From: Mucilaginibacter sp. cycad4
Lineage (GTDB): Bacteria; Bacteroidota; Bacteroidia; Sphingobacteriales; Sphingobacteriaceae
Length of the DNA stretch: 64,000 nt
Assembly: GCF_034263275.1 (NCBI RefSeq)
Contig: NZ_CP139559.1
Coordinates: forward strand, 558,001-622,000
Direction: 5' to 3'
The translations under genes and the position numbers were made by a program. The notes beneath the pieces were generated by a model that saw nothing but the letters and a program-made list of their open reading frames with translations, made no database searches and had not been told where the DNA came from. Positions 32,800-50,878 of the stretch are shown one piece after another (within the stretch, counting starts at the first letter, position 1; the number at the start of each line of letters is the position of its first letter).

Positions 32800-32867
32800 A
32801 TTTTCAATGGCTTATGATTAATAGTTTATTGATTAATACAAAGCTTGCGGAATTTAGCGGCTTAAAT

Positions 32868-32883
32868 AATGATGGAAATCACC
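32868..32883. promoter_or_regulatory. CRP/FNR-type operator before adhP
   Basis: AATGATGGAAATCACC contains TGAT-GGAA-ATCA (32870-32881), 71 bases before the adhP ATG at 32799. It is the least symmetrical member of a set of six. No good -7 box is seen at the 51.5-base distance found in four of the others. Confidence 0.6.
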
Positions 32884-32954
32884 TGCTATTATGATATGGG
32901 ACATTCAATCACTAAACTGCGGGAAGATCTATAAAAGTGCGAATGATAACTACG

Positions 32955-33178
32955 CTATTTTCCATCATAAACAACACCAGATGTTGGCGTTTCTTTTAAT
33001 TCAATTTTAACAAGCCCATTCAATTGCCTGGTTATGCTGTTCCGGATCCATATGGCCAGGTTTTCGGCCGTGGGGTTTCCCAAGCCGGAGACCTCGTTCA
33101 TAATGGTATGATCCAACTGGGCAACTATGGGTTTCACCACGTGTTGATCAGGGCAAAGTCAAGCACCCATCCTTCGGG
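32955..33178 (-). pseudogene. Decayed 6-carboxytetrahydropterin synthase (QueD/PTPS) remnant
   Basis: The last 60 or so residues are clearly the C-terminal half of a 6-pyruvoyl-tetrahydropterin synthase family protein: PIVAQLDHTIMNEVSGLG, then NPTAENLAIWI and KIELKETPTSGVVYDG. Upstream, PEGWVLDFALINT continues the family pattern in another frame, with one base missing at about 33139-33141 (INT-VVKP expected). Before that, stops appear and the N-terminal zinc-binding histidines are absent. So the gene is both frameshifted and truncated. QueD makes the queuosine precursor; a functional copy would have to lie elsewhere. Confidence 0.75.
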
Positions 33179-33313
33179 CTTTATTACTTAGCCTTTAGCA
33201 ATGATTTTCGGAGGTTGCCGGTTCTCTCAAGTTTATAATGCTGCGCAATAGTCTTTCCTTATAGGCTTTTTTGGTTAGATGCTGTTTTATAGGTGTTTAC
33301 AATCAGGTCGATA

Positions 33314-33329
33314 AGTGACCCTCGTCACT
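33314..33329. promoter_or_regulatory. CRP/FNR-type operator before the L,D-transpeptidase-like gene
   Basis: AGTGACCCTCGTCACT is a perfect 6-4-6 inverted repeat. Its core ends 50 bases before the ATG at 33378. The nearest -7-like sequence, AACTTTAC at 33352, would put the site nearer the class II position than the other members of the set. Confidence 0.75.
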
Positions 33330-33377
33330 ATTTTAATACCCGGCACGCTGCAACTTTACATCATCAAAAACGATGTT

Positions 33378-34730
33378 ATGAAAACATTTGAAACCAATAA
33401 AGCTGTCCGTAAAATACCCGTTGTTTTTCTTGTGTTTTTTATAGCGGGTATTACAATTGCTGCAAAGGCCGCCAGGAGCAACACGACCAACCCAAGCAAT
33501 GCCGATACCTCGGTTACTGCCGAGATCAGCAGGCAACTGAACAATAAACAGGGGAACCAGGGGTTATATTTTCCTTTATCAGTCAAACGTTTTTACAAGC
33601 AGCGCGATTCTGCACCCATATGGACGGTGGAGCAAAAAGATCAGAATAAAACCTGGGCCGCAATGCTGCTGATTGATTGTGTATTACAGTTTGGCTTAAG
33701 GCATGAGGACTATCATCCCAAAGAATTACTGTATGCTACACTACATACCATACTTGAACAGCCCGGAAAAATAAGTAACAGGCAAATAGCACGGTTTGAG
33801 CTCATGCTTACCGATGCGATGTTAGCTTTTATCAATAACCTGCATTTTGGTAAGCTAAACCCTTACTACACACCTGCAAAAATTGACGGGGGCGCAGTTA
33901 ACGGTTTCGACACTGCCGGGGTTTTAACAAACGCGCTTACACAGCCTGCGTTTATGGATGCGATAGTAAAGGTGCAGCCCGAAAATAAAGATTACCAGGC
34001 ATTTCAACACCAGTTGTATATGATCAAGGGGGTTTATGATGGCGATTGTTATGAAACGCCTGAGGCTGATGTGCGGAAGATCGCTATCAATATGGAACGG
34101 CTGCGCTGGGCTGAGATCAACGACAGCGCTTATATCCAGATCAATATCCCAACGTACTTATTAAAGCTTGTGCGGGCCGATACCACTTTTAGTTTTAAAG
34201 TAATTGTAGGGAAACCGGCAACGCCGACACCAGCTTTGGCAACCAGCCTTACCAACTTTGCAACGGCGGCGGGCGCAGAGGTGATAAAAGCAAGGTCGAC
34301 TGATAAATTCAGTTCCAATAATTTGTCTTTTAACACGGCCGCGGGCGGGAAACGAAAGGCAGGCTCCATCTATTTCATACCCGGCAACGAAGCAGGGATC
34401 GAATTGCCGGGTGTGCCGGATCAAGGTTTGTTCAGAAAACAGGCAAGGGCCACAAGCAATGGCAGTATCAGGATTGAACGGGGCGAGGAACTGGCAAAAC
34501 TGTTATTAAAGGCAGATGGCAACGAAGCCTTTATAAAACCGATGCATAAAGCCCTGATGAATAATGAAGTTAAGGATTTTGTACTGAATAAGCCGCTGCC
34601 AATCCGGGTCACTTACATTACAGCAGCCATTGTTGACGGGCAGTTGGTTAAATATAACGACATATATAACCTTGACAACCGGGTTGAAAGCCAGCTTTAT
34701 AATATCGAACCAAATAATAAAAAACATTAA
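33378..34730 (+). CDS. YcbB-like L,D-transpeptidase homologue lacking the catalytic Cys
   Basis: A 450-residue exported protein. The ATG at 33378 gives a membrane anchor/signal (VVFLVFFIAGITIAAKA); the frame opens earlier, at 33315, but that start lies on the operator. An L,D-transpeptidase scaffold domain follows (FYKQRDSAPIWT, LQFGLRHEDYHP, MLTDAMLAFINNLHFG), then a YkuD-like domain with FKVIVGKPATPTP. Active family members carry SHGC[IV]R; here the motif is SNGSIR, with Asn361 for His and Ser363 for the catalytic Cys. So it is probably an inactive homologue that binds peptidoglycan or regulates crosslinking. A shared low-oxygen operator stands upstream, and the universal stress gene follows by 28 bases. 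Confidence 0.82.
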   Translation: MKTFETNKAVRKIPVVFLVFFIAGITIAAKAARSNTTNPSNADTSVTAEISRQLNNKQGNQGLYFPLSVKRFYKQRDSAPIWTVEQKDQNKTWAAMLLIDCVLQFGLRHEDYHPKELLYATLHTILEQPGKISNRQIARFELMLTDAMLAFINNLHFGKLNPYYTPAKIDGGAVNGFDTAGVLTNALTQPAFMDAIVKVQPENKDYQAFQHQLYMIKGVYDGDCYETPEADVRKIAINMERLRWAEINDSAYIQINIPTYLLKLVRADTTFSFKVIVGKPATPTPALATSLTNFATAAGAEVIKARSTDKFSSNNLSFNTAAGGKRKAGSIYFIPGNEAGIELPGVPDQGLFRKQARATSNGSIRIERGEELAKLLLKADGNEAFIKPMHKALMNNEVKDFVLNKPLPIRVTYITAAIVDGQLVKYNDIYNLDNRVESQLYNIEPNNKKH

Positions 34731-34758
34731 CCATATCCATTAATCAATCCTTTAAGCC

Positions 34759-35637
34759 ATGAAAACTATTTTAGTACCCACCGATTTTTCGGCGCCTGCA
34801 AAAAACGCGGCGAACTATGCTATAAACCTTGCGCAAAATATCAAAGCAGGCTTGATATTATGCCATGCCATTAAAATACCTTCGGAAACGCCTATGGCAG
34901 CGCAGATAGCCTGGCCTTTAGAAGATTATACCTCGCTCAAAGAAGATGCGGATAAGGAACTGAAGCAACTTTCAATGGCCTTACAACAGGAAACACCTTA
35001 CGCCGAAGCAGGCTCAAACCGGGGTGTTATCACTACCTGCTGCGATGTAGGTGAGGTGATTGATGTAGTAACAGGCAAAATAGATGAGGAAAAGAGTGTA
35101 ATGGTTGTTATGGGCATGTCGGGAGCGGGGGCCATGAGCAGGTTTTTTTTAGGGAGCAATACACAGGATATGATCAGCGATGCTACTTTCCCGGTTTTAC
35201 TGATCCCGTCACAAGTAAAGTATCACCCTGTAAAAAAAATCGCCTTTGCTACCGATTTGAACAGCAGCGATATAGAAATGATCCATTCGGTAGCAAGCCT
35301 GGCACGCTATTTTAATGCAGAGTTATTGATAGCCCACGTTACCGATGAGAAATACGAAACAGGTGATGAAAAACAGGAGGTTGAAGCTTTTTTAAATGAA
35401 GTTACCTGCAAAGCCAACTACCCTAAAATTTATTACAGGCATATTAAAGCTACCGGCATAATGCGCGGGCTCGATTGGCTCAGCGAACACGGAGTGATCG
35501 ATATGCTGGTGATGGTACACCGTAAAGTTAACCCGCTTGAGCGCCTGTTTGGCGTCAGTTATACTAAAAAACTTTCGCATCATATTGAAATACCTCTGCT
35601 GGTACTGCCGGAAGGGCTTCCGTCGCTGCATTTTTAA
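34759..35637 (+). CDS. Tandem universal stress protein (UspA family)
   Basis: 292 residues with two UspA domains. The first runs from MKTILVPTDFSAPAKNAANYA to VMVVMGMSGAG..GSNTQDMI, about residues 1-150. The second runs from VKKIAFATDLNSSDIEMI to the end (VIDMLVMVHRK). The first copy keeps the glycine-rich nucleotide-binding pattern G-M-S-G-(x)n-G-S-N-T; the second is more diverged. Such proteins respond to starvation, redox and oxygen stress. It lies directly after the transpeptidase-like gene, so it shares that gene's CRP/FNR-type operator. Confidence 0.9.
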   Translation: MKTILVPTDFSAPAKNAANYAINLAQNIKAGLILCHAIKIPSETPMAAQIAWPLEDYTSLKEDADKELKQLSMALQQETPYAEAGSNRGVITTCCDVGEVIDVVTGKIDEEKSVMVVMGMSGAGAMSRFFLGSNTQDMISDATFPVLLIPSQVKYHPVKKIAFATDLNSSDIEMIHSVASLARYFNAELLIAHVTDEKYETGDEKQEVEAFLNEVTCKANYPKIYYRHIKATGIMRGLDWLSEHGVIDMLVMVHRKVNPLERLFGVSYTKKLSHHIEIPLLVLPEGLPSLHF

Positions 35638-35708
35638 AAACGGGCGATGGAAGGGGGCTTATGCTATTGTATAGCAACGCATGCTGGCCTTGTTGTTTAG
35701 CTATAAAA

Positions 35709-35724
35709 AATGATATTCATCACT
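35709..35724. promoter_or_regulatory. CRP/FNR-type operator and promoter of ccoI-ccoS
   Basis: AATGATATTCATCACT (core TGAT-ATTC-ATCA at 35711-35722) lies 74 bases before the ccoI ATG. CATTTTTG at 35768-35775 matches TAnnTTTG at five of six fixed positions and starts 51.5 bases from the operator centre, as in three other members of the set. Confidence 0.8.
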
Positions 35725-35795
35725 TTTCCATCCAACAGCTATCATTTTTCAGGTGCCGGATTACAGCCATTTTTGATTTTATAAATAGATCATCA

Positions 35796-38180
35796 ATGGC
35801 TGTAAATATACTTACCCAAACCACCTGTTACCATTGTGGTAACGATTGTGACAAAGATCATTACGTATTGGATGGCAAAGATTTTTGCTGCGCGGGCTGT
35901 AAAGGTGTTTACCAGGTGCTATCCAATAGCGGGCTATGTAACTACTACAGCTATAATGAACATCCCGGCGCAACCCGCAGCCATGTGCAAAAGCGGTTTG
36001 AATACCTTGATGATCCTTCAATCACAGCCGACCTGGTTGATTTTACAGACGAAAACATTACCATATTAACGCTTTATATCCCTTACATCCATTGCAGTTC
36101 ATGTATTTGGCTGCTTGAGCAGTTAAACAGGTTTAACCCCGCCATTTATTACAGCCGGATTGATTTTTTAAAGAAACAGGTAAACCTGCGCTTTAATAAC
36201 AGGGAGATAAGTTTAAGGCAGGTTGTGGAGCTATTGGTTGATATCGGCTATGAGCCGCTTATTAACCTCCAGGATGTTATTAAAAAACAACAAACCGGCA
36301 CAGGCGATAACCTCGTAAAAAAAATAGCCGTAGCGGGATTTTGTTTTGGTAATGTGATGCTGCTCAGTTTTCCCGAGTATTTGGGATTATCGGAATATGA
36401 GCAAACCTTCAGGCATTTTTTTGGCTGGTTAAATGTGGTATTTTCATTGCCGGTTGTTTTTTACAGCGGGAGGGAATATTTTCAATCGGCCTATACAAAC
36501 CTGCGTAATAAAATATTGAATATCGATTTTCCACTGGCACTTGGTATAGCCGTACTTTTCTTGCGCACCCTCGCAGAAGTATTGACGCATACAGGAGCCG
36601 GTTTTGCCGATACGCTTTGCGGGCTGGTGTTCTTTTTACTGGTAGGCAAATTTGTTCAGCGAAAAACGTATTACCATATCTCTTTTGAGCGTGATTACCG
36701 CTCGTTTTTCCCTGTTGCTGTACAGGCTGTTGATAACGCTATTGAAAAGCCGCTGCCCTTATCAGCCCTCAAAGTAGGTCAGCGGATCCGTATTCGCAGT
36801 AATGAGATCATACCGGCCGATGCGATATTGCTGAGTGGCGATGCGCGGATTGATTTTAGCTTTGTTACCGGCGAATCGGTGCCTGTGACAAAGGTTTGGG
36901 GTGAAGTGGTTTATGCCGGCGGCCGGCAAATGGGCGAAGCTATTGAACTGGAGGTAATTAAACCTGTATCACAAAGCTACCTTACCCAATTGTGGAACAA
37001 TGAAGCTTTTAGCCGCAGCCAGGACAACCGGATGCAAACTTTCAACCAAAAGGTAAGCAAGTATTTCACCATTGTTTTACTGGTGATTGCATTGGGTTCA
37101 TTAGTTTTCTGGTTGCCGGCCGATGTTTACCGGGCCTTTTCGGCATTTACAGCTGTGCTGATTGTAGCCTGTCCCTGTGCACTGGCCTTAAGTACACCGT
37201 TCACCATGTCGGCGGCATTGGGCATTTTTGATCGCAATTTCTTCTACCTCAAAAATACCGCTGTTGTTGAACAACTGGCCCGTATCAATGCCATCGTTTT
37301 AGATAAAACCGGCACCATTACTATCGGCGGCGAGAATGGCGTGAGCAATAACGCGCAGCTAAGCAGTTACCAGGAACGGCTGATATACAGTATATGCAGC
37401 AATTCGGCCCATCCTTTAAGTATCCAGATCTGCGATTACCTTCAGGGAGCAGATAAACTCCGGGTAAGTAATTACCGGGAAATAGCCGGAAAGGGGATCA
37501 CAGCCTGGGTTGATGGGCATAATGTTCAAATTGGCAGCCAGCCGTTTTTAACAGGAGGGGTGGATATTGCAAAATCAACCGAAGTACACCTGATGATAGA
37601 CGGACGGTATGCCGGCTATTTCAGTTTTGTTAATAAGTATCGTGAGGGGCTTGAAGATATTACGCGGCTGGCTACGGGGTATAAAATTTACCTGCTATCA
37701 GGCGACCAGGACCGGGAGCGGAACAATTTACTGCCTTATTTTAAGGGGGAGGGATATATGCTGTTTAACCAATCGCCACAGCAAAAGCTCGATTTTATAA
37801 AGGCTTTACAGCTGGCCGGCAAAAAGGTAATGATGATAGGCGACGGCCTGAATGATTCAGGTGCTTTAAAACAAAGTGATTTGGGGATAGCCATTACGGA
37901 TAACGTAAACAATTTTTCGCCCGGCAGCGATGCTATTTTGGATGGGCGCTCACTCAGGTTATTGCCCGCATTTCTTAAATTTTCAAAGGATAGCATTACC
38001 ATTATCCACATCTCGTTTTTTATATCGCTTTGTTATAACTTATTGGGGTTAAGCTATGCGGTAAGCGGCAGGCTTTCACCGCTCATAGCTGCCATATTGA
38101 TGCCATTAAGCACCGCAACCATAATTTCGTTCACCAGCATAGCGACACACCTCGCCGCTAAAAAAAGGAAACTATCATGA
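35796..38180 (+). CDS. ccoI: Copper-transporting P-type ATPase for cbb3 oxidase assembly (CcoI/FixI)
   Basis: A 794-residue inner-membrane copper exporter that loads the cbb3 oxidase. An N-terminal metal-binding zinc-finger-like part has Cys11/14 and Cys31/32/35 (FCCAGCKGVY), followed by an HMA domain with Cys100/Cys103 (HCSSC). Eight membrane helices carry CPC at residues 459-461. Further motifs are TGES, the phosphorylated Asp503 in DKTGT, and GDGLNDSGAL. The ATG at 35796 follows the promoter; upstream codons in frame from 35661 are excluded by it. The stop overlaps ccoS by four bases (ATGA). Confidence 0.95.
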   Translation: MAVNILTQTTCYHCGNDCDKDHYVLDGKDFCCAGCKGVYQVLSNSGLCNYYSYNEHPGATRSHVQKRFEYLDDPSITADLVDFTDENITILTLYIPYIHCSSCIWLLEQLNRFNPAIYYSRIDFLKKQVNLRFNNREISLRQVVELLVDIGYEPLINLQDVIKKQQTGTGDNLVKKIAVAGFCFGNVMLLSFPEYLGLSEYEQTFRHFFGWLNVVFSLPVVFYSGREYFQSAYTNLRNKILNIDFPLALGIAVLFLRTLAEVLTHTGAGFADTLCGLVFFLLVGKFVQRKTYYHISFERDYRSFFPVAVQAVDNAIEKPLPLSALKVGQRIRIRSNEIIPADAILLSGDARIDFSFVTGESVPVTKVWGEVVYAGGRQMGEAIELEVIKPVSQSYLTQLWNNEAFSRSQDNRMQTFNQKVSKYFTIVLLVIALGSLVFWLPADVYRAFSAFTAVLIVACPCALALSTPFTMSAALGIFDRNFFYLKNTAVVEQLARINAIVLDKTGTITIGGENGVSNNAQLSSYQERLIYSICSNSAHPLSIQICDYLQGADKLRVSNYREIAGKGITAWVDGHNVQIGSQPFLTGGVDIAKSTEVHLMIDGRYAGYFSFVNKYREGLEDITRLATGYKIYLLSGDQDRERNNLLPYFKGEGYMLFNQSPQQKLDFIKALQLAGKKVMMIGDGLNDSGALKQSDLGIAITDNVNNFSPGSDAILDGRSLRLLPAFLKFSKDSITIIHISFFISLCYNLLGLSYAVSGRLSPLIAAILMPLSTATIISFTSIATHLAAKKRKLS

Positions 38181-38338
38181 ACATTATTTATTTCCTGATC
38201 GGGTGCAGCGTACTGCTTGCGCTCGTGTTTTTAGGTGCATTTTTCTGGGCCCAGCGCAACGGTCAGCATGATGATCTGTATACCCCATCGGTAAGGATCC
38301 TGCTGGATGATGAACCGGCCGATAAAGATAAAAAATGA
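38177..38338 (+). CDS. ccoS: cbb3-type oxidase assembly protein CcoS
   Basis: A 53-residue single-helix membrane protein needed to insert copper/haem into cbb3 oxidase. MNIIYFLIGCSVLLALVFLG forms the membrane helix and is followed by the family signature GQHDDLYTPSVRIL. Its ATG overlaps the ccoI stop. Its stop codon, TGA at 38336-38338, is also the first half-site of the operator for ccoNO. Confidence 0.93.
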   Translation: MNIIYFLIGCSVLLALVFLGAFFWAQRNGQHDDLYTPSVRILLDDEPADKDKK

Positions 38339-38349
38339 CCAATGTCATT
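38334..38349. promoter_or_regulatory. CRP/FNR-type operator and promoter of the ccoNOQPGH operon
   Basis: AATGACCAATGTCATT is a perfect 6-4-6 inverted repeat. Its core (38336-38347) ends 78 bases before the ccoNO ATG. TACTTTTA at 38393-38400 (five of six TAnnTTTG positions) starts 51.5 bases from the operator centre, which places the operator near -62. Confidence 0.82.
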
Positions 38350-38424
38350 ATTCAGGCAAACCGTCATCATTCTGCCGGCAACGGCCCCTCAATACTTTTA
38401 CACCATCAAATTATTTAATATCAT

Positions 38425-40551
38425 ATGCAGCCCGAAAATTTTTACTATGACAACAAGATCGTCCGGAATTTTGGTATCGCCACGGTGATCTGGGGTATAA
38501 TTGGGATGACCGTAGGCCTCATCGTAGCCATACAATTGTATAGCCCGGGAATGAACATGGGCAACCAATACACCACATTTGGCCGTATCAGGCCCTTACA
38601 CACCAACGCGGTGATCTTTGCTTTTGTGGGTAACGCTATTTTTATGGGTGTTTACTACTCATTACAGCGACTGTTAAAAGCGCGGATGTTTAGCGATGCC
38701 CTTAGTCAAATTCACTTTTGGGGCTGGCAGCTTATTATTGTTTCGGCTGTTATTACGTTGCCCTTAGGTTTAACCACCTCGCATGAGTATGCCGAACTGG
38801 AATGGCCAATTGATATTGCCATTACTGTGATCTGGGTTGTGTTTGGCATTAACATGTTTGGTACGATATTTAAACGCCGCGAACGGCATTTATATGTGGC
38901 CATATGGTTTTACATAGCCACCTTTGTTACCATAGCCGTATTGCATATTGTAAATTCATTTGAGCTGCCGGTATCGGCCTTTAAAAGCTACATGGTATAT
39001 GCAGGCGTACAGGATGCGTTGGTACAATGGTGGTATGGCCATAATGCGGTGGCGTTTTTCCTGACCACACCGTACCTGGGCATGATGTATTACTTTTTAC
39101 CCAAAATGGCCAACAGGCCTATCTACTCCTATAAATTAAGTATCCTGCACTTTTGGGCGCTCATTTTTATTTATATCTGGGCCGGCCCGCACCATTTATT
39201 GTACACCACGCTGCCTGGTTGGGCGCAGTCATTAGGTGTGGCCTTTTCTATTATGCTGTTAGCACCAAGCTGGGGCGGCATGATCAATGGCTTGCTCACC
39301 CTGCGCGGGGCCTGGGATAAGGTTCGTGATGATGTGATCCTGAAGTTTATGGTAGTTGGCCTAACAGCATATGGTATGGCCACTTTTGAAGGCCCCATGC
39401 TTTCATTGAAACAGGTGAATGCCATAGGCCACTTTACCGATTGGATAATTGCCCACGTACACGTTGGCGCTTTGGGTTGGAACGGCTTTTTAACCTTTGC
39501 CATCCTTTACTGGCTTATCCCGCGTATTTATAAAACACAGTTATATTCAAAAAAGATGGCTTCGTTCCATTTTTGGATAGGTACGCTCGGGATCCTGTTT
39601 TATGCCGTGCCAATGTATTGGGCCGGTTTTACCCAGGGTTTAATGCTTAAAGAGTTTACGCCCGAAGGGATCCTGAAATACCCCGCATTTTTAGAAACCA
39701 CCATGCGCATATTGCCTATGCATGTTATGCGGTCTGTAGGCGGTGGATTATACCTGCTGGGCGTTATTGTAATGGCCTACAACCTTTGCCGCACCGCGCT
39801 GCAGGGCAAGCTCGCGGCTAATGAACCTGCCCAGGCCATGCCGCTGCCCGCTTTAAGCAAAACCGGGCACGAAGAAACATGGCACCGGGTATTGGAACGC
39901 CGCCCAATACAAATGATGATAGCCGCATTGCTGGTAATACTGGTAGGTACTTTTATTGAGTTGATGCCAACGCTAACCATATCATCAAATATCCCAACTA
40001 TAGCGGCTGTAAAGCCTTATACTCCGCTTGAGTTGCAGGGGCGTGATATTTATATCAGAGAAGGCTGCTCAAACTGCCATTCGCAAACGGTAAGACCTTT
40101 CCGCTCAGAAACCGAGCGTTATGGCGAATACAGTAAGGCAGGCGAATTTGTGTATGACCACCCCTTTTTATGGGGATCAAAACGTACCGGGCCCGACCTG
40201 GCACGTGAGGGCGGCAAATATGGCAATGCCTGGCACTATAACCACCTGATGGACCCTCGCCTCATGTCGCCGGGGAGTATCATGCCAAACTATGACTGGC
40301 TGTTAACCCAAAATCTTGATACCGCTACCACAGCCGCCAAAATAAAGGCTATGCGTACGCTGGGTGTCCCGTATCCCGAAGGATATGAAAAAATAGCCAA
40401 CAGCGATCTTCGTGAACAGGAAAAAGAAATTGCCGATAACCTGTATAACGATCATATCAAGGTTAAAAACAATAAAGAAATAGTAGCTCTGATAGCCTAC
40501 CTGCAACGTTTGGGTACCGATATCAAGGCGAGCAAAACCGCCGCTAAATAA
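38425..40551 (+). CDS. ccoNO: Fused cbb3 cytochrome c oxidase subunits I and II (CcoN-CcoO)
   Basis: A 708-residue fusion of the catalytic haem-copper subunit and the mono-haem subunit. Residues 1 to about 480 are CcoN with 12 or more helices and the haem/CuB histidines (HTNAVIFAFVGN, WWYGHNAVAFF, WAGPHHLLYT, HVHVGALGWNG). Then comes a linker, a membrane anchor near 495-515 and CcoO with haem motif Cys548-Ser-Asn-Cys551-His552 and VRPF. The oxidase reduces oxygen with high affinity and pumps protons. Bacteroidota often carry this fusion. It is first in the operon ccoNO-ccoQ-ccoP-ccoG-ccoH. Confidence 0.97.
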   Translation: MQPENFYYDNKIVRNFGIATVIWGIIGMTVGLIVAIQLYSPGMNMGNQYTTFGRIRPLHTNAVIFAFVGNAIFMGVYYSLQRLLKARMFSDALSQIHFWGWQLIIVSAVITLPLGLTTSHEYAELEWPIDIAITVIWVVFGINMFGTIFKRRERHLYVAIWFYIATFVTIAVLHIVNSFELPVSAFKSYMVYAGVQDALVQWWYGHNAVAFFLTTPYLGMMYYFLPKMANRPIYSYKLSILHFWALIFIYIWAGPHHLLYTTLPGWAQSLGVAFSIMLLAPSWGGMINGLLTLRGAWDKVRDDVILKFMVVGLTAYGMATFEGPMLSLKQVNAIGHFTDWIIAHVHVGALGWNGFLTFAILYWLIPRIYKTQLYSKKMASFHFWIGTLGILFYAVPMYWAGFTQGLMLKEFTPEGILKYPAFLETTMRILPMHVMRSVGGGLYLLGVIVMAYNLCRTALQGKLAANEPAQAMPLPALSKTGHEETWHRVLERRPIQMMIAALLVILVGTFIELMPTLTISSNIPTIAAVKPYTPLELQGRDIYIREGCSNCHSQTVRPFRSETERYGEYSKAGEFVYDHPFLWGSKRTGPDLAREGGKYGNAWHYNHLMDPRLMSPGSIMPNYDWLLTQNLDTATTAAKIKAMRTLGVPYPEGYEKIANSDLREQEKEIADNLYNDHIKVKNNKEIVALIAYLQRLGTDIKASKTAAK

Positions 40552-40559
40552 CAAAAGCC

Positions 40560-41656: not shown

Positions 41657-41661
41657 CGATC

Positions 41662-43035: not shown

Positions 43036-43459
43036 ACATATGAACTGGGGGAAAGGGATAGTAATAGGCATGCTGGCTTTTATGAGCTACATTGTAGCTA
43101 TGGGCGTTGCCATGTTCAGGCAGCCCGACGATGTCGATCCGCATTATTACGAAAAAGGGCTTGCGTTTAATGCCGATTACGATAAAGAGAAGCAGGTACT
43201 TAGCGATAAGGCACAGCCATCAATCAGCATTAACAACAATATCCTTTTAGTGAAGTTTGCAGGCCCTTCAAATGGAGCCGTAGATTTAAAACGCCCGGGC
43301 GACGGTAAAATGGACAAGCATATCAACCTGCAAAGCAATGCGGCAGGCAATGTTAATATCCCTCTGACTAATGCAAAGCGTGGCAGGTGGCAGCTTGTTT
43401 TCAATTGGGAAAGCAATGGCAAAAAATATCTGTATACCAAAGAAATATTTATACCATGA
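43028..43459 (+). CDS. ccoH: CcoH/FixH-family oxidase assembly protein
   Basis: 143 residues with an N-terminal membrane helix (GIVIGMLAFMSYIVAMGVAM). The FixH hallmark of a helix followed by DPHYYEKGLAFNADYDKE is present, then a periplasmic domain ending in a WQLVFNW strand. It assists cbb3 assembly or stability together with CcoI, CcoG and CcoS. It overlaps the genes on both sides, so it is tightly coupled within the operon. Confidence 0.92.
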   Translation: MIKHMNWGKGIVIGMLAFMSYIVAMGVAMFRQPDDVDPHYYEKGLAFNADYDKEKQVLSDKAQPSISINNNILLVKFAGPSNGAVDLKRPGDGKMDKHINLQSNAAGNVNIPLTNAKRGRWQLVFNWESNGKKYLYTKEIFIP

Positions 43460-44142
43460 GCACCAGTCAAATCGCTTTTTTTATAGGCTTGTTTGGCAGT
43501 GTTCACTGTATAGGGATGTGCGGCCCGCTCGCCTTCGCTATACCGGTTAACCACAGTAGTTTTTGGCTGTTGTTGTGGGATAAGTTGGTGTATAACCTTG
43601 GGCGTACTATAAGTTATGCAACCCTCGGGTTGATAACCGGGCTCATCGGTAAGCAATTGTGGCTTTCAGGTTTGCAGCAGGGGGTAAGCATCATTAGCGG
43701 GATACTAATTCTGCTGGCTGCTTTTTCGAGATTATGGAAGCTGAAAATTTACAAAGAAAGCAGGAGCGGCTGGCTGTTGAAGCCTTTTAACGCATTGCTC
43801 ACTTATGCGTTGCAGCACCGGGCGGGGCATTTGGTCATAGGATTGTTAAATGGCTTTTTACCCTGCGGTTTTGTTTACCTGGCCCTCATCGGTGCGGTAA
43901 ATACTTCATCAGTGGGTGCTTCTGTACAGTATATGGTTTGGTTTGGTTTGGGCACTCTGCCTTTAATGCTGGCCGTTACTGTGGGCAGCGGATTTATTAA
44001 CCAGGGCATACGCAGAAAGATGAACAGGGTGGTTCCCTATTTTATGCTATGCCTTGGTATTTGGTTTTTGCTGCGCGGGCTCGCTATGAATATCCCTTAT
44101 TTAAGCCCGCCATCGGCCAGCGCAACTGTTATTTGTAAGTAA
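43456..44142 (+). CDS. SafE/DsbD-like membrane protein (sulfite exporter TauE/SafE family, DsbD_2)
   Basis: A 228-residue inner-membrane protein with about six helices. It starts at the ATG that overlaps the ccoH stop (ATGA); the longer frame from 43387 lies inside ccoH. The conserved opening GLFGSVHCIGMCGPLAFA and later LLNGFLPCGFVYLALIG each carry Cys in a helix, as in DsbD_2/CcdA-like proteins. Members next to cco genes probably move copper or reducing equivalents for oxidase assembly. The database name 'sulfite exporter' is likely misleading here. Confidence 0.85.
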   Translation: MSTSQIAFFIGLFGSVHCIGMCGPLAFAIPVNHSSFWLLLWDKLVYNLGRTISYATLGLITGLIGKQLWLSGLQQGVSIISGILILLAAFSRLWKLKIYKESRSGWLLKPFNALLTYALQHRAGHLVIGLLNGFLPCGFVYLALIGAVNTSSVGASVQYMVWFGLGTLPLMLAVTVGSGFINQGIRRKMNRVVPYFMLCLGIWFLLRGLAMNIPYLSPPSASATVICK

Positions 44143-44203
44143 AGCCGGAGGGGCACTGATGAGCCGCCTGTTATTCTAAATAAACAAATATTAAATTAAT
44201 TAT

Positions 44204-45979
44204 ATGCACAGCTTTCATATACCTGTTTTAGGTTTGGGATACTCTGTTGATACACCACTAAAAGTGGCCCGATATGGTATCTCGTCCGTTGTTTCAATTG
44301 TTGATGATGAGCTCATTGAACGTATGCGGCGGTATCATTCAACTCAAGATGGTTTGCCATTTACGCCTATTTTAAAAAGCGGGCCCGACAGCCGGTCAAA
44401 ACGGATAACAGCCTATCTTAATTTATTAAACGAGCTGGTAAATAAGCAGTTTGAAGAACTTAAACAATTGCCGTTTAACCAGGGAATGGACATCGACCGT
44501 TACTTTGACCTGCTGCCCGAAGCTTCGGCTTTAAAACAGGGTTACGACCTGATGAACGATTATCCCGAGGGGGAACGTAAACAGATCTTTCAAAACCTTT
44601 TGCGGGCCAAAATGAGCAAAGGCGCTATTGACGTAAATATCATGGCCAAAGTTGACAAGATGAACTTTGATGCAGAGGGCAATTATACAGGCGATACCCA
44701 TACCGACGCGCTTGCTGCTTTAAAAGGTTTTGCTGAGAGTGACCTGGATTCATCAGTGGTGCTTTCGGCGGGGATGAACCCGAGGCTGTACAGTTACCTG
44801 GAAACTTTTAAGTGTTTTTATCCTGATGGCAATAACGAGCTCCGTAAACGGATCGTTTTAAAGGTGAGCGATTTTCGTTCGGCGCTGATCCAGGCTAAGT
44901 TTTTGGCAAAGAAGGGGCTGTGGGTATCGGAGTTCAGGATTGAATCGGGCCTGAATTGTGGCGGGCACGCTTTTGCTACTGATGGCCTGCTGCTTGGGCC
45001 GATCCTGGAAGAGTTTAAACAGAAAAGGGAAAATATGATGCACGAACTGCTTGCCCTTTATCAACCGGCACTTGCCGAAAGGGGGTTTACAGAGGCCGGT
45101 CCGTCGCAAAAGATCAGCGTACAGGGTGGGATAGGTACCATGCAGGAAGATTTTTTTTTGCGGGAGCATTACCAGATGGATGCCACCGGCTGGGGCAGCC
45201 CTTTTCTGTTGGTACCCGAAGCCACCAATGTTGATGAACATACGCTGCAACAATTGGCCGGTGCCGGGCATGATGATTTTTACGTAAGCTCATCATCGCC
45301 GCTGGGTATCCTGTTCAACAACTTCAGCAAAAGCTCGGGCGAAGAGCAACGACTTAGCAGGATAGCAAATGGCAGGCCGGGCAGCCCCTGCAACAAAAAG
45401 TATTTAGTATCAAATACCGAGTTTACCGAGCATCCCATTTGCACAGCATCACGTGAGTACCAGCATCTGAAAATAAAACAGCTAAAACAAAGTGAGCTGC
45501 CGGCAGATGAAATTCAAAAACAGATAGATGCCGTTACCGAAAAGGTTTGCTTATGTGAAGGGCTCTGTGCATCTGCATATATCAAAAACGATATCCTGAA
45601 GGCCCGGGAAAACAGGGCAGTAACCATTTGCCCGGGGCCAAATATCGCCTTCTTTTCAGGGGTTTATACGCTTGATGATATGGTTAGCCACATTTATGGC
45701 CGCATAAACCTGCTTGAGGCAACAACCCGTCCTAATATGTTTATCAATGAGCTGAACCTCTATATAGATTACCTTAAACAAGACATTTCGGACTATGTAG
45801 CAAACCTTAACGAAAAGAAAGGAAAATACCTGCTCAAATTCAAAGATCAATTACAGCAGGGCATTACATACTACAAACAACTGATCCCGCAAATAAGCAA
45901 CCAAACCCAGGATTACCTGGAGCGGATGCTGAAGGACCTGATCATATCAGAAGAGAAACTCCAATTGCTGAGTATCTAA
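44204..45979 (+). CDS. Conserved-looking 591-residue protein of unknown function with C-terminal cysteines
   Basis: I do not recognise the family. It is soluble, with no signal peptide or membrane helix. The first 40 residues (FHIPVLGLGYSVDTPLKVAR, then YGISSVVSIVDDELIE) look like the opening of an alpha/beta barrel. A middle part has helices and VSEFRIESGLNCGGHAFATDG, SVQGGIGTMQED and WGSPFLLVPEATNVD, suggesting a phosphate- or flavin-binding barrel. Residues about 400-490 carry several Cys (GSPCNKKY, HPICTAS, VCLCEGLC, TICPGPN), possible iron-sulfur ligands. A long helical C-terminus follows. It sits 61 bases after the cco operon and before a shared terminator with hemN, so a redox role in low-oxygen metabolism is inferred. 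Confidence 0.7.
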   Translation: MHSFHIPVLGLGYSVDTPLKVARYGISSVVSIVDDELIERMRRYHSTQDGLPFTPILKSGPDSRSKRITAYLNLLNELVNKQFEELKQLPFNQGMDIDRYFDLLPEASALKQGYDLMNDYPEGERKQIFQNLLRAKMSKGAIDVNIMAKVDKMNFDAEGNYTGDTHTDALAALKGFAESDLDSSVVLSAGMNPRLYSYLETFKCFYPDGNNELRKRIVLKVSDFRSALIQAKFLAKKGLWVSEFRIESGLNCGGHAFATDGLLLGPILEEFKQKRENMMHELLALYQPALAERGFTEAGPSQKISVQGGIGTMQEDFFLREHYQMDATGWGSPFLLVPEATNVDEHTLQQLAGAGHDDFYVSSSSPLGILFNNFSKSSGEEQRLSRIANGRPGSPCNKKYLVSNTEFTEHPICTASREYQHLKIKQLKQSELPADEIQKQIDAVTEKVCLCEGLCASAYIKNDILKARENRAVTICPGPNIAFFSGVYTLDDMVSHIYGRINLLEATTRPNMFINELNLYIDYLKQDISDYVANLNEKKGKYLLKFKDQLQQGITYYKQLIPQISNQTQDYLERMLKDLIISEEKLQLLSI

Positions 45980-46017
45980 AACAAAGAAACCGGGATCGAT
46001 TCCCGGTTTCTTTGTTT
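45979..46017. terminator. Bidirectional terminator between the cco-side operon and hemN
   Basis: A perfect 17-bp stem (45979-45995 with 46001-46017; AAACAAAGAAACCGGGA and its complement) closes a 5-base loop. A-rich and T-rich outer arms serve both directions. Confidence 0.9.
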
Positions 46018-46043
46018 AGCTAATAGTCGGTAATGTCAAAATC

Positions 46044-47411
46044 TTATCCCGTCATGCTGAATAACTGCGTGGCGGGCTTGTCGGCCCACAGGCGGGCATC
46101 AAGCGCCATACATATATTGCGTAAAAAGCGTTTACCCATGGGCGTAACAGTAATACACCATGAGTTTAGCTCAACCAGTCCGTCCTGTTCAAACTGGCGC
46201 ATGCGTTCCAGCCCCTCTAAAAAAGCTTCACTTGTTTCGTTATGCAGGTTCCAGCAGGTTTTGCCGTTACACATGATATTTAAAATATGCCTGCGAATGC
46301 TCAGATCATCTGTTGTAAGCATATGGCCTTTAAATGCCGGTAGCTGGCCGGCGTTAACCAATTGCAGGTATTCTTCAACATTTTTTACATTTTGGGCAAA
46401 GGCATACCAGCTATCGCTTATGGAAGATACGCCCAAGCCAATCATTAATTGGGTGTACTGATGGGTGTAACCCATAAAATTGCGGTGCAGCGTACCGTTT
46501 TGTTCGGCAAGGTAAAGGCTATCCGTAGGCAAGGCAAAATGGTCCATGCCAATTTCATGATAACCCAACGCCGTAAATAATTCGCGTCCGCATTCATACA
46601 AAGCCCTTTTTTCATTGGCATCGGGCAGGTCATTCTCGGTAAAACGGCGCTGGCCGGGTTTTATCCAGGGTACGTGGGCATAACTGTAAAAAGCAATCCT
46701 ATCGGGCATTAATTTCGCCACCTGGGCAATGGTATCCTTTAACCCGTTGAGCGTTTGAAGCGGGAGGCCATAAATCAGATCGAAGTTAACCGATGTATAC
46801 CCGATCCGTCGTGCCTGCTGGGTAACCAGCTTTACCAGTTCAAAACTCTGGATGCGGTTAATGATAAACTGAACCCTGGGGTCAAAATCCTGGATGCCGA
46901 GGCTTATCCTCCTGAAACCAAGATTGTATAAAACCTGTAAATGATCAACAGTTGTATTGGCGGGGTGTGCCTCAAAGCTAAACTCGGCCTGGGGATGGAT
47001 AGTTGATGAATTTAATATACCATTGATCAGTATGGCCAGGTGTTCGGGTTTAAAAAATGTAGGGGTGCCGCCACCAAGGTGTATTTCCCTGATAACGGGT
47101 TTGCTTTCAAATGTATTGAGGTACATGGCCCATTCCATCAAAACAGCTTTAATGTATGGCTCCTCCACCCGGTGGTTTTTGGTGATGCGGGTATTACAAC
47201 CGCAATAGGTGCACAGACTTTCGCAAAATGGCAGGTGGATATATAAGCTAATCCCGTCGCGGTCATTACTCTCCTTAAAAGAAACCGACACCGATTTTCG
47301 CCATTCCTCTTTGTCAAAACTTTCACTGTTCCAGTAGGGTACTGTAGGGTAACTGGTATAACGGGGAGCTGCAACGTTGTATTTATCAATAAGATGCTGG
47401 GGTATTTTCAT
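46044..47411 (-). CDS. hemN: Oxygen-independent coproporphyrinogen III dehydrogenase (HemN)
   Basis: A 455-residue radical-SAM enzyme that converts coproporphyrinogen III to protoporphyrinogen IX without oxygen. The [4Fe-4S] cysteines are Cys63, Cys67 and Cys70 (PFCESLCTYCGCNT). Family segments are RYTSYPTVPYW at the start, EIHLGGGTPTF, RISLGIQDFDPRVQ and the C-terminal LMIGLGVSSISDSWYAFAQN. It supplies haem for the cbb3 oxidase under low oxygen. It lies 6 bases behind the lactate dehydrogenase gene, so the two are one operon under the operator at 48528. Confidence 0.96.
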   Translation of the reverse strand: MKIPQHLIDKYNVAAPRYTSYPTVPYWNSESFDKEEWRKSVSVSFKESNDRDGISLYIHLPFCESLCTYCGCNTRITKNHRVEEPYIKAVLMEWAMYLNTFESKPVIREIHLGGGTPTFFKPEHLAILINGILNSSTIHPQAEFSFEAHPANTTVDHLQVLYNLGFRRISLGIQDFDPRVQFIINRIQSFELVKLVTQQARRIGYTSVNFDLIYGLPLQTLNGLKDTIAQVAKLMPDRIAFYSYAHVPWIKPGQRRFTENDLPDANEKRALYECGRELFTALGYHEIGMDHFALPTDSLYLAEQNGTLHRNFMGYTHQYTQLMIGLGVSSISDSWYAFAQNVKNVEEYLQLVNAGQLPAFKGHMLTTDDLSIRRHILNIMCNGKTCWNLHNETSEAFLEGLERMRQFEQDGLVELNSWCITVTPMGKRFLRNICMALDARLWADKPATQLFSMTG

Positions 47412-47417
47412 AAAATA

Positions 47418-48455
47418 TTAAGTTTTGGTTGTATCAACCGTTGATAGCTCGGCAGTTGCTTTGCAGTTTTTTGAACATACACACGCATTCCCGACGCACT
47501 TATTAGCCTGCCACTGATCAAGGTTTTTTATGGTTTGATTAGCTATTTGCTGCAATGCCTCATTGGTTAAAAATGCCTGGTGCGGGGTAATGAGCACATT
47601 TTTAAAGGTCATCAGTTTTTCCAGCAGCGGGTCCTTATCGGTATCATGTTGATGCTGCTCAAAAAACAGGCCTTTTTCTTTTTCATAAACATCAAGCCCC
47701 AGGTAACCTATTTTACCGGTTTCAAGGGCTTGTAATGCCGCTTCAGTATCAATTAAACCGCCGCGCGACGTATTCAGGAGCATCACGCCGTCTTTCATCA
47801 AAGCAAGGGTATCATCATTGACCATGTGATAGTTTTCGGGGCATAGGGGGGCATGTAATGAAATGATATCGGCCATAGAAAGTAATTGATCCATAGTCAC
47901 TTGTTCAACTCCCGGCAGGTTTGACTTATTAAGCGGATCGTAGCCGATAACGCTGCAGCCAAAGCCGTTAAAGATAGCGGCGACCGCCTGCCCTATATGC
48001 CCCAGGCCAATAATGCCAACTGTTTTTCCGGATAAATTAAAGCCCATAAGGCCGTTCAGCCTGAAGTCGAACAGGTGGCTATGGGCATTTGATTCGGTTA
48101 AATGTCTGTTCAGGGCAAGCGCCATAGCAATAGTATGTTCGGCAATAGCCTGCGGCGAGTATTCGGGTACGTTAGCCAGTTTTATATTGCGCAAAGCTGC
48201 TGTTTCCCTATCTATATGATCTGTACCGACCGACCGGGTAGCAATATATTTAACCCCAAGATCGGCCAGTTGATTGATTACATAGGCAGATACATCGTCG
48301 TTGGTAAAAACAACCACTGCTTCCTTACCTTCGGCATAAACCGCGGTTTCAGAGTTTAGCGGGTTAGATATAAGGGTAATGTCATGTTTTTTTTGATTCG
48401 CCCTGGCCAAAAATTCCTTTTCGAATGCCTTGATACTGTAAGCTACAACTTTCAT
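47418..48455 (-). CDS. ldhA: D-2-hydroxyacid (D-lactate) dehydrogenase with a Cys-rich tail
   Basis: 345 residues from the ATG at 48453-48455 (MKVVAYSIKAFEKEF). An earlier Met at 48479 lies in the promoter. The NAD-binding motif is GIIGLGHIGQAVA. The catalytic Arg is in NTSRGGLID, the Glu lies further on, and the His is in ITPHQAFLT. The pattern fits fermentative LdhA, which reduces pyruvate to D-lactate. The last 20 residues carry C-x4-C-x-C-x3-C (KCVGNACVCSKNC), an unusual possible metal or redox site. Co-transcribed with hemN. Confidence 0.9.
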   Translation of the reverse strand: MKVVAYSIKAFEKEFLARANQKKHDITLISNPLNSETAVYAEGKEAVVVFTNDDVSAYVINQLADLGVKYIATRSVGTDHIDRETAALRNIKLANVPEYSPQAIAEHTIAMALALNRHLTESNAHSHLFDFRLNGLMGFNLSGKTVGIIGLGHIGQAVAAIFNGFGCSVIGYDPLNKSNLPGVEQVTMDQLLSMADIISLHAPLCPENYHMVNDDTLALMKDGVMLLNTSRGGLIDTEAALQALETGKIGYLGLDVYEKEKGLFFEQHQHDTDKDPLLEKLMTFKNVLITPHQAFLTNEALQQIANQTIKNLDQWQANKCVGNACVCSKNCKATAELSTVDTTKT

Positions 48456-48527
48456 CTGTGTGCATTTTATATTAAACAAAACTACACGGATGATACCGGC
48501 AAAACCATGAGCGCGGTCAGTGATAAA

Positions 48528-48543
48528 AATGACCCTTATCAGT
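48528..48543. promoter_or_regulatory. CRP/FNR-type operator and promoter of ldhA-hemN
   Basis: AATGACCCTTATCAGT (core TGAC-CCTT-ATCA at 48530-48541) lies 75 bases before the ldhA ATG. On the minus strand TAGTTTTG at 48484-48477 is a full TAnnTTTG match and starts 51.5 bases from the operator centre. The operator overlaps the stop codon of the response-regulator gene. Confidence 0.82.
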
Positions 48544-49591
48544 TTCTCATCTTTACCAGCTTGTTAAGGTCTGTTATATTGATGGTTGCACCTTTCTTTT
48601 CTATCAGGCCTTCCTCTTTAAAATCAGAAAGCGTGCGGCTTACCGTTTCGGTAGCCATACCGGCCATTGATGCCAGTTCTTCCCTTGATATTTTAAACTC
48701 CTGTTTTTCGCCGTTTTGCTTGTTCAGCCTTACCAATACCTGCGCCAGCCGTTTCCTTACCGAATGATAGGCCAGTTCAATGAGCTGCTCTTCCTTTTCT
48801 TTGATATTGTTTGACAGTAATTTCAAAAACTGCCGGCCAAGGTCAGGATACCGGTCAAGCATGGTTAAAACGGTATCTTTCGGCAGCAGGCATATGGCCG
48901 CGTCCTCGGTTGCTTCGGCTGTTTCGCCATAAGCATCATCAAGCAACAGGGCATGTACGCCGAGGTAGTCATCGGCTTTGTATAAACCGGTCATCAGCTC
49001 CCTGCCGTCTTCGGCCAGTTTAAATGTTTTTATGCTGCCTTCCATCACCAGGTAAATTCCCTGCGGGGTATCGCCATCATAAAATAATACTTGTTTTTTT
49101 CTTATCTGTCTTATTTTCCGACTGGCTATCAGTGTATTTAACTCGGCCGCGCCGTTGCGCGAATTGCTGGCCAAATGCTCTATTTTTTGCAGCGACCTGC
49201 TAAAAAACGCTTGTTGTTTTTCTTTTTTGTTCAGCCTGCTATCAATAGCATTAAGCAATTCTATATCGTCAAAAGGTTTGGTAAGGTAATCATCGGCACC
49301 CATTTCCATTCCTTTTCTAAAGTCCACCCGTTCGGCCTTTGCGGTTAAAAATATAAAGGGGATATTGTCCGTTTCGGGCGATTTACTGAGCATGAACAAT
49401 ACGCCATACCCGTCAAGCTCGGGCATCATGATATCGCACAAAATAAGTTCCGGTTTATGCTTTATAGCGAGGTCGACACCAATTTTGCCATTACCGGCCT
49501 GCAATACCAGGTAGCCGGAAAGCTCCAGTATTTCAGCGGTGCTTTCCCTGATATCTGTATTGTCTTCAATAATGAGGATACTTTTTTTCAT
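48539..49591 (-). CDS. Response regulator with CRP/FNR output domain (receiver fused to FixK-like regulator)
   Basis: 350 residues. The receiver domain (1-120) has phospho-acceptor Asp53 in LCDIMMPELDGYG and the Lys of YLTKPFDD. A helical linker leads to a cyclic-nucleotide-type barrel (about 155-270, LFYDGDTPQGIYLVMEGSIK). The Crp-type helix-turn-helix at about 290-345 has ISREELASMAGMATETVSRT. Its recognition helix keeps the E-x-x-S-R pattern of FNR. No N-terminal cysteine cluster is present, so oxygen is not sensed by an iron-sulfur centre but by the partner kinase. It overlaps the kinase gene by four bases. This regulator is the natural candidate for the A[AG]TGAY-N4-RTCA operators. Confidence 0.93.
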   Translation of the reverse strand: MKKSILIIEDNTDIRESTAEILELSGYLVLQAGNGKIGVDLAIKHKPELILCDIMMPELDGYGVLFMLSKSPETDNIPFIFLTAKAERVDFRKGMEMGADDYLTKPFDDIELLNAIDSRLNKKEKQQAFFSRSLQKIEHLASNSRNGAAELNTLIASRKIRQIRKKQVLFYDGDTPQGIYLVMEGSIKTFKLAEDGRELMTGLYKADDYLGVHALLLDDAYGETAEATEDAAICLLPKDTVLTMLDRYPDLGRQFLKLLSNNIKEKEEQLIELAYHSVRKRLAQVLVRLNKQNGEKQEFKISREELASMAGMATETVSRTLSDFKEEGLIEKKGATINITDLNKLVKMRN

Positions 49592-50775
49592 GATTGCGAA
49601 AATGTGAGCGTGAATGATGTTCCGTAGTTAACTTTGCTTTCAAATTGTACTGTGCCATTGATGAGGCCCACGTAGCGGGCCACTATATTAAGACCGAGGC
49701 CGGTACCCGGGATATTGCCGGTATTGTGTGCCCGGAAAAAGGCTTCAAACAGGTGCTTCTGGTCACTTTCGGGGATGCCTATACCATTGTCCTTAACCAC
49801 AACAACCAGTTGATTGCGGGCCACCTCTGTGTTAAATTCAATAAAGGTATTTTCGCCCGAGTATTTGATGGCGTTGCTGATCAGGTTGATGATGCAATTT
49901 TTTAATAGCGCCGAATCCAATTTAAAAACACTGGTGGTACCGGTATGCTGATAAATGATGTTTTGGTTTTGTTTGGCTACCAGTTGCATTTCTTCGGTTA
50001 TTTCCTCACCAAATTTTACCAGGTTAAATTCGGTAAATAAGGGCTCCACCTTCCCGGCTTCGAGTTTTTCGAGCGACAGGAAATCATTCAGGATACCCGT
50101 AAGGTTACCTACCGACGTTTTTATTTTGGCGATGTGTTTGCTGATGTTAGGGCTGCTAAACTCCTGCGCGTATTTTTCAACAAGAATGGCCGAAAGCTGG
50201 ATACTGCTCAGCGGGGTCCTGAACTCGTGCGAGGCCATTGATACAAAACGGCTTTTCATCTGTCCAAGTTCTTTTTCTTTCTCTAACGACTGGCTAACTT
50301 CCTCTTTAGCCTGCAGCAATTCGGTTACCGAATGTTTTAAAGAAATTGTACGCTCCTCCACCAACTCTTCCAAATGATTGGCATAGTCCTTTAACCTTTC
50401 TTCCGCTTCCTTTTCACGTGTGAGGTCATGGATAAAACCGGTGTAGATCTTTCGGCCTGAAAACTGCACTTCGCTTACCCCCAGGCGGAAAGGGAATATA
50501 GAACCGTTCTTTTTTAACCCCTTAACTTCACGGCCGAAGCCTATAATATGCGGCTTGCCTGTATTTTGATAACGGTTTATATAGCCATCGTGCTGTTCTT
50601 TATCGGGAGGCGGCATTAAAACGGATACATTTTTACCAATTACTTCGCCGGGGCTATATTGAAACAGGTTACATGCTGCCGGATTGATAGACTCAATAAT
50701 TCCGTGGTTGTTTATGGTAATAATGCCGTCTATGGCATTTTCAATAATTGCTTTTAGCAGCGCGGCATTCTCCAT
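49588..50775 (-). CDS. FixL-like haem-PAS sensor histidine kinase
   Basis: A 395-residue cytoplasmic kinase without membrane helices. The PAS domain at about 1-120 matches the FixL oxygen-sensing domain. His62 in EQHDGYINRY corresponds to the haem ligand (His200 of Bradyrhizobium FixL), Arg68 to Arg206, and Arg82 in PHIIGFGRE to Arg220. A coiled coil at about 120-175 joins it to the kinase: His183 in SHEFRTPLSS, NLISNAIKYSGE, DNGIGIP, GTGLGLNI. A haem prosthetic group is inferred from these residues. Overlap with the regulator gene makes a two-gene FixL-FixJ/K unit next to ldhA-hemN and cco. Confidence 0.9.
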   Translation of the reverse strand: MENAALLKAIIENAIDGIITINNHGIIESINPAACNLFQYSPGEVIGKNVSVLMPPPDKEQHDGYINRYQNTGKPHIIGFGREVKGLKKNGSIFPFRLGVSEVQFSGRKIYTGFIHDLTREKEAEERLKDYANHLEELVEERTISLKHSVTELLQAKEEVSQSLEKEKELGQMKSRFVSMASHEFRTPLSSIQLSAILVEKYAQEFSSPNISKHIAKIKTSVGNLTGILNDFLSLEKLEAGKVEPLFTEFNLVKFGEEITEEMQLVAKQNQNIIYQHTGTTSVFKLDSALLKNCIINLISNAIKYSGENTFIEFNTEVARNQLVVVVKDNGIGIPESDQKHLFEAFFRAHNTGNIPGTGLGLNIVARYVGLINGTVQFESKVNYGTSFTLTFSQS

Positions 50776-50828
50776 CAGCGTTCCTTATTTATGACAAAGA
50801 TCACGAATGGATTTAGTGTTCAATATGA

Positions 50829-50878
50829 TACTTCTCACCATAAAAAGTGATCACGATCACTTTTTATGGTGAGAAGTA
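50829..50878. promoter_or_regulatory. 50-bp perfect inverted repeat with CRP/FNR core before the sensor operon
   Basis: Two 24-base arms are exact complements with only AC between them. The inner 16 bases, AGTGATCACGATCACT (50846-50861), fit the shared operator, 73 bases before the kinase ATG. On the minus strand GATCTTTG at 50802-50795 is a -7-like box at the common 51.5-base distance. It probably mediates autoregulation. The extra length could form a long hairpin or cruciform. Confidence 0.82.

Follow-up and report, generated by a model that had tools for sequence, protein, structure and literature searches.

A two-slot operator arrangement in a putative low-oxygen regulon of Mucilaginibacter with a FixL-like kinase and a receiver-FNR fusion

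The 64,000-nucleotide stretch of Mucilaginibacter sp. cycad4 analysed here (contig NZ_CP139559.1, positions 558,001 to 622,000; hereafter the window) is part of a 7.11-Mb single-contig genome and carries six copies of the site TGAY-N4-RTCA. They precede genes for a cbb3 oxidase, its P-type ATPase, two dehydrogenases, stress proteins and a sensor kinase with its regulator. These sites are probably the operators of a small, clustered low-oxygen regulon, which would be controlled by a FixL-like kinase and a receiver-FNR fusion through promoters with two operator slots. All six had been correctly located in an initial annotation of the sequence. They are given below with their slot (position relative to the transcription start) and their -7 box, TAnnTTTG, scored by its six defined letters.

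32868-32883, minus strand: adhP operator, near slot (about -41.5); box AAGCTTTG at 32839-32846, 5/6
32890-32905: other-slot half-site of the adhP promoter
33314-33329, plus strand: operator of the transpeptidase/usp operon, near slot; weak box CAACTTTA at 33351-33358, 4/6
33292-33307: other-slot half-site of the transpeptidase/usp promoter
35709-35724, plus strand: ccoI operator, far slot (about -63.5); box CATTTTTG at 35768-35775, 5/6
35731-35746: half-site TATCAT in the near slot of the ccoI promoter
38334-38349, plus strand: ccoNO(P)GH operator, far slot; box TACTTTTA at 38393-38400, 5/6
38356-38371: half-site CATCAT in the near slot of the ccoNO promoter
48528-48543, minus strand: ldhA-hemN operator, partly within the 3' end of the regulator gene; box TAGTTTTG at 48477-48484, perfect with 6/6
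48506-48521: degenerate near-slot site ACTGACCGCGCTCATG of the ldhA-hemN promoter
50846-50861, minus strand: operator of the sensor-regulator operon, far slot; box GATCTTTG at 50795-50802, 5/6
50824-50839: degenerate near-slot site GGTGAGAAGTATCATA of the sensor promoter

The spacing between operator and box was measured in 286 oriented promoters, reduced to 267 after removal of near-copies (263 from relatives and 4 from the window), and a box was counted at 5/6 letters or better. The relatives are represented by the 80 best loci, out of 574 confirmed, that surround homologues of the window's regulator, and thus constitute a near sample. The box starts 51 bases past the operator centre (51.5) in 66 of the 267 promoters and 29 bases past it (29.5) in 43, the mean per offset being 2.9. 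Among the relatives only, 104 of the 263 promoters have a box at either slot, compared with a mean of 4.7 and a maximum of 10 for 95 other pairs of offsets. Intergenic operators also occur in pairs, 31 of which are 22 bp apart; the next commonest spacings, 65 and 66, are represented by five pairs each. Since 51 minus 22 equals 29, the two offsets correspond to two operator slots in one promoter. In Flavobacterium psychrophilum, the box occupies positions -12 to -5 according to an excerpt of PMC9723704, and with this borrowed spacing the slot centres fall near -63.5 and -41.5. The choice of slot tends to follow the gene: far and near boxes, respectively, number 26 and 1 for ldhA, 18 and 0 for ccoNO, 19 and 1 for the kinase and 3 and 12 for usp in the relatives, and adhP is mixed (4 and 2).

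In the window, the far slot is used in four promoters (ccoI, ccoNO, ldhA and sensor), where the box starts 51.5 bases from the operator centre with 5, 5, 6 and 5 of the six letters, as had been recognized initially. The class I position then proposed holds for these four. In adhP and the transpeptidase, the boxes lie at 29.5 in the near slot and had been overlooked. A single fixed promoter distance was not borne out: the offsets of 51 and 29 and the 31 tandem pairs show instead two slots separated by 22 bp. The other slot has TCA at the place of the matching right half in all six window promoters, a feature that had played no part in picking the sites. At random intergenic positions of the window, the probability of a box at either slot is 0.021 for at least 5/6 letters and 0.136 for at least 4/6. 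A matrix built from the relatives without the window, combined with a box rule (5/6, or 4/6 if the operator score exceeds 12), retrieved from the 64 kb the six sites and, at 50831, one weak shadow match in the near slot of the sensor. Elsewhere in the genome, it gave three matches in 13 stretches of 20 kb, 10 of which had been chosen for holding a full palindrome. From operator centre to start codon there are 76 bases for adhP, 56 for the transpeptidase, 79 for ccoI, 83 for ccoNO, 80 for ldhA and 78 for the sensor; the core-to-start distances given initially, once recomputed, were right within about 2 bases by their own convention. The operators thus stand at the fixed distances from a promoter box that characterize class I/II activator-dependent promoters (with a box of 4/6 in the transpeptidase), and promoters of this kind are predicted here.

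The operators are also conserved. In the 80 loci and the window, RTGAYN4RTCAY is found 209 times in intergenic regions and 51 times within called open reading frames (ORFs), against 0 and 23 for the mirrored control. ORFs were called from the first possible start codon, so that coding sites are overcounted; for this reason, the window operators at 33314 and 35709 fall inside such ORFs. Per gene, TGAYN4RTCA was counted 20-200 bases upstream, in the relatives only. It precedes all 28 orthologs of ldhA, 19 of the 20 of ccoNO, one of two of ccoI and 46 of the 69 of the sensor kinase, as well as 31/52 of usp, 8/10 of the transpeptidase and 4/5 of hsp20. Genes internal to operons rarely have it (ccoP 1/18, ccoG 3/32, DsbD-like 2/31 and the regulator gene 5/79), and hemN, often located behind ldhA, has it in 3/41. 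This conservation before the same genes across genera, e.g., ldhA and ccoNO, supports the initial view of one operator and one regulon.

The operon proposed to govern these sites consists of two genes that overlap by 4 bases:

49588-50775, minus strand: histidine kinase with a FixL-type heme PAS domain
48539-49591, minus strand: fusion of receiver, cNMP-binding and HTH_Crp_2 domains, the proposed reader of the operators, with recognition helix TETVSR

The PAS domain of the kinase matches the FixL heme-PAS structures 8js5 (E 8e-34) and 1dp6 (E 1e-32). Residues were counted in 71 kinases (70 relatives and the window) and 81 regulators (80 and the window), filtered by length and, for the kinases, also by identity. 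The residue aligned to the heme-binding proximal His is a His in 68/71 kinases and the distal Arg is present in 71/71, roles which we take to apply to the aligned kinase residues. The transmitter is composed of HisKA and HATPase_c, with the phospho-His in 71/71. The kinase is therefore likely a FixL-type oxygen sensor, for which heme and oxygen binding are predicted. In the regulator, Response_reg spans residues 5-116 and the phospho-Asp is present in 81/81. The recognition helix has the E, S and R of FNR-type DNA recognition in 81/81; presumably these correspond to E209, S212 and R213 of FNR. No N-terminal Cys cluster was found in the window regulator, which has only Cys52 and Cys234. Its closest named relatives are from Mucilaginibacter species (81% and 79% identity). 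In a tree of 68 CRP halves, made by a quick method, the 22 included fusions form one clade with a support of 100, near Cys-rich FNR and with long branches.

According to the proposed mechanism, the kinase would sense oxygen through its heme PAS domain and, when oxygen drops, would phosphorylate the receiver fused to the FNR/CRP-type DNA-binding protein. The phosphorylated dimer would then bind (A/G)TGAY-N4-RTCA(Y) at one or both slots, about -63.5 and -41.5 and 22 bp apart, and would recruit RNA polymerase to the Bacteroidota TAnnTTTG promoter. Activation rather than repression is assumed, and the genes switched on would be those of the cbb3 oxidase, the P-type ATPase, lactate and alcohol dehydrogenases, hemN, the stress proteins and the operon itself. 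The low-oxygen assignment of the initial annotation fits the FixL-type heme PAS and the gene content, from which we infer oxygen as the signal.

The position of the sensor operator suggests autoregulation of the sensor-regulator operon. This operator is the centre of a longer symmetry:

50829-50878: perfect palindrome of 50 bp, with arms of 23 and a central 4, centred on the sensor operator

Its arm is the longest among the 357 intergenic operators tallied, and as RNA the palindrome has a predicted fold of -35.1 kcal/mol (z -9). A further match to TGAYN4RTCA, at 50792, runs into the -7 box of the sensor operon. In 8 of 67 kinase promoters, the operator is followed 65-66 bp downstream by a second one close to the start codon; negative autoregulation through it may be considered as a lead only. 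A strong, bidirectional, terminator-like hairpin (51038-51071) lies between a susD-like gene and the sensor operon.

Several observations weigh against a regulon read by the fusion. The operator precedes only 3 of the 17 orthologs of adhP, and 23 of the 67 kinase promoters have no exact site within 130 bp before the start. Genome scans allowing two mismatches in operator and box are at background (92 vs 84 in the control for the far slot and 61 vs 76 for the near slot), so that members outside the island are mostly unprovable. The remaining points come from a class sample of 295 genomes, of which 143 have a relative of the fusion (E 1e-40 or better) and 167 have ccoNO (E 1e-90 or better). Upstream regions of ccoNO were compared between 40 fusion-less and 40 fusion-bearing genomes (80 of the 167, hand-picked, for the most part from the head of the list of ccoNO matches). 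TGAYN4RTCA is found within 400 bases before ccoNO in 35/40 genomes without and 37/40 with the fusion, RTGAYN4RTCAY in 16/40 and 18/40, and the operator with a box at a slot in 28/40 and 34/40, respectively. The operator is therefore older or wider than the fusion and does not by itself identify its reader. Restriction of the operator to genomes with the receiver-CRP is accordingly unsupported, as 35 of the 40 cbb3-bearing genomes lacking the fusion keep the site. The base before TGA was also considered as a means of telling readers apart. G has a frequency of 0.32 at this place in FixL/fusion loci, 0.11 in fusion-only genomes and 0.03 in FNR-only genomes, a clear trend between loci which is weak class-wide.

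An alternative raised by these data is a generic Bacteroidota FNR box, open to any FNR-type protein that a genome contains, with the link to FixL and the receiver-CRP in the window being partly a coincidence of neighbourhood. In the 40 fusion-less genomes, the 30 best CRP-type loci gave 27 readable helices, of which 26 are TE[TS]xIR, usually in stand-alone FNR-like proteins with N-terminal Cys, and 19/40 of these genomes have a CRP-type hit no more than 9 kb from ccoNO; together with the operators and boxes kept in these genomes, this favours the generic box. On the contrary, a TETxIR FNR is absent from the four HTH_Crp_2 proteins of the present genome, and the operator precedes the kinase-regulator operon itself in the majority of the relatives (the 46/69 above). 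In addition, the fusion and the stand-alone FNR substitute for each other. With an FNR cut-off of E <=1e-52, placed by hand at the point of the match list where the first fusions occur, the 167 ccoNO genomes comprise 76 with the fusion only, 47 with FNR only, 28 with both and 16 with neither, at least three of the last having a stand-alone-length match just under the cut-off. Mutual exclusion is supported by p values of 1.7e-9 for the 167 genomes, 6.5e-6 for 100 genera and 0.07 for 45 families; the weak value at family level indicates that the exclusion is partly due to shared ancestry. An operator within 700 bases of ccoNO occurs in 24/25 fusion-only genomes, 15/15 with both, 32/35 FNR-only and 3/5 with neither. 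The generic box is thus considered improbable as the explanation for the window, and the receiver-FNR fusion is likely, though not proven, to be the reader of its operators. Slightly favoured is the broader view that two unlike oxygen sensors, the stand-alone Cys-rich FNR and the FixL kinase with the fusion, share one operator and one ruler and have been repeatedly swapped while the promoters were kept.

A further alternative is that the operators are read by other CRP/FNR proteins of this genome, with which the local receiver-CRP would share them or compete. Four HTH_Crp_2 proteins of the genome are above cut-off, one of them the receiver-CRP, initially noted as the only CRP/FNR-type regulator in the window. 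A second pair of FixL-like kinase and receiver-CRP is encoded at 447.6-449.8 kb, its kinase being 77% and its regulator 62% identical to those of the window, and its helix is also TETVSR. At 447581, an operator-like core extends over the 3' end of the paralogous regulator gene, similarly to the ldhA operator of the window. The other two are Cys4 CRP-type proteins (459302 and 5462966) with an N-terminal C-X4-C-X2-C-X2-C and the helix YETVFR or YESLFR; possibly, they are direct oxygen or redox sensors. Their close relatives (E <=1e-50) are found in 7 of the 295 genomes, four of them of Mucilaginibacter. With such helices and such a narrow distribution against a class-wide operator, the Cys4 proteins are unlikely to be general readers of it. 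Replacement of the local fusion by any of these proteins appears doubtful, and the paralogous pair is a possible partner at these operators. Of the initial interpretation, one operator, one regulon and low oxygen are upheld, and the single spacing is not; the receiver-CRP is the likely reader, though perhaps not the only one.

The putative targets of the fusion in the window are the following:

31765-32799, minus strand: adhP, zinc alcohol dehydrogenase type
33378-35637, plus strand: genes of a Scaffold-domain protein (earlier named transpeptidase) and universal stress proteins
35796-38180, plus strand: ccoI, P-type ATPase with a metal-binding domain, followed by a small gene earlier named ccoS
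38425-40551, plus strand: ccoNO fusion of the cbb3 oxidase, followed by ccoP, ccoG, ccoH and a DsbD-like gene
46044-47411, minus strand: radical SAM gene behind ldhA, earlier named hemN
47418-48455, minus strand: ldhA, a D-2-hydroxyacid dehydrogenase by Pfam (the gene name is that of the initial annotation)

With at most one mismatch, the operator with a far-slot box occurs at 10 places in the 7.11 Mb, four of them in the window, and with a near-slot box at six places, one of them in the window; the transpeptidase site needs two mismatches. A large genome-wide regulon is unsupported by these few places and by two-mismatch totals near or below the control. By its sequence, the regulon looks like a local island with a few outliers. 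For instance, an operator with a far-slot box at 481270 precedes the gene of a membrane protein of 121 amino acids, which is 58% identical (E 6e-46) to a member of a family that has the operator in 10 promoters of 10 relatives' loci; no Pfam match was found for a relative of the protein. Other genes behind operator and box in the relatives encode acetate kinase, phosphoketolase, BON-domain and pyridoxamine-oxidase-like proteins and P-type ATPases, several of them on one or two promoters, and form a fermentation and stress set. A protein of 591 amino acids without Pfam match (window 44204-45979) has the operator upstream in 15 of 20 orthologs, and none was found before the window's own copy.

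The bare core is a poor guide to such sites. ARTGAY-N4-RTCA has 11 strand-hits in the 64 kb, one of them a seventh match at 35849 within the ccoI coding region, against a mean of 0.76 and a maximum of 4 in 100 shuffles, so that the chance rate first claimed, one per 16 kb, was too high. Across the genome it has 122 strand-hits compared with 83 for the reversed control pattern (1.5-fold), and the full palindrome has 14 sites compared with 8, four of the 14 being in the window. The core is thus non-discriminating genome-wide, and, as the initial annotation had argued, clustering, intergenic placement and geometry carry the weight. The modest genome-wide excess could suggest chance or repeated sites without any regulatory role, an explanation of negligible probability, contradicted by 0 intergenic control sites against 209, by the fixed spacing to TAnnTTTG and by the 31 pairs at 22 bp.

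The system resembles FixL-FixJ-FixK of rhizobia, where excerpts of PMC7888657 and PMC6710368 describe a heme-PAS oxygen-sensor kinase, a receiver protein and a CRP/FNR-type activator of cbb3 genes. Here, receiver and CRP/FNR effector are joined, and the two-step relay from FixJ to FixK is reduced to one protein. FixJ combines a receiver with a LuxR/GerE-type output domain, which is lacking in the window regulator, whose output is cNMP_binding and HTH_Crp_2; FixK and FNR stand alone without the receiver domain that it possesses. As judged from its domains, the system would work like FixL-FixJ-FixK, yet its regulator is neither FixJ nor FixK as defined. With FNR/ANR of proteobacteria it shares the E, S and R of the helix, the site TGAY-N4-RTCA, slots near -41.5 and -62, and target genes such as cbb3, hemN, usp, adh and ldh. 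It differs in the absence of N-terminal Fe-S cysteines, sensing having probably moved to the kinase, and in the flanking base, which is A/G instead of the T of FNR/ANR sites (as in TTGAT). The stand-alone Cys-rich FNR-like proteins of Bacteroidia share the operator core and the promoter ruler before ccoNO. Unlike the fusion, they have about 236 amino acids, the helix TE[TS]xIR and no receiver, with N-terminal Cys commonly arranged as C-X2-C followed by a third Cys, and they largely replace the fusion in other genomes. Class I, II and III promoters of CRP in Escherichia coli similarly have activator slots near -62 and -41, single or in tandem; the present promoters differ in their Bacteroidota TAnnTTTG -7 box and 22-bp pitch.

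To our knowledge, little is known about respiratory control at low oxygen in Bacteroidota. No description of a receiver-FNR/FixL system in this phylum was found by titles and abstract openings, in a searched literature that mostly excludes subscription papers. The window offers a readable promoter code for Bacteroidota, i.e., two slots, 22 bp apart, measured against TAnnTTTG, together with a probable heme-based sensor and a FixL-FixJ-FixK relay in shortened form. In addition, it provides a natural case of regulators with different sensing chemistry sharing operators, in which regulator replacement is directly testable. If true, the sensing module would have been swapped while the cis-regulatory code was kept across the cbb3-bearing Bacteroidia.

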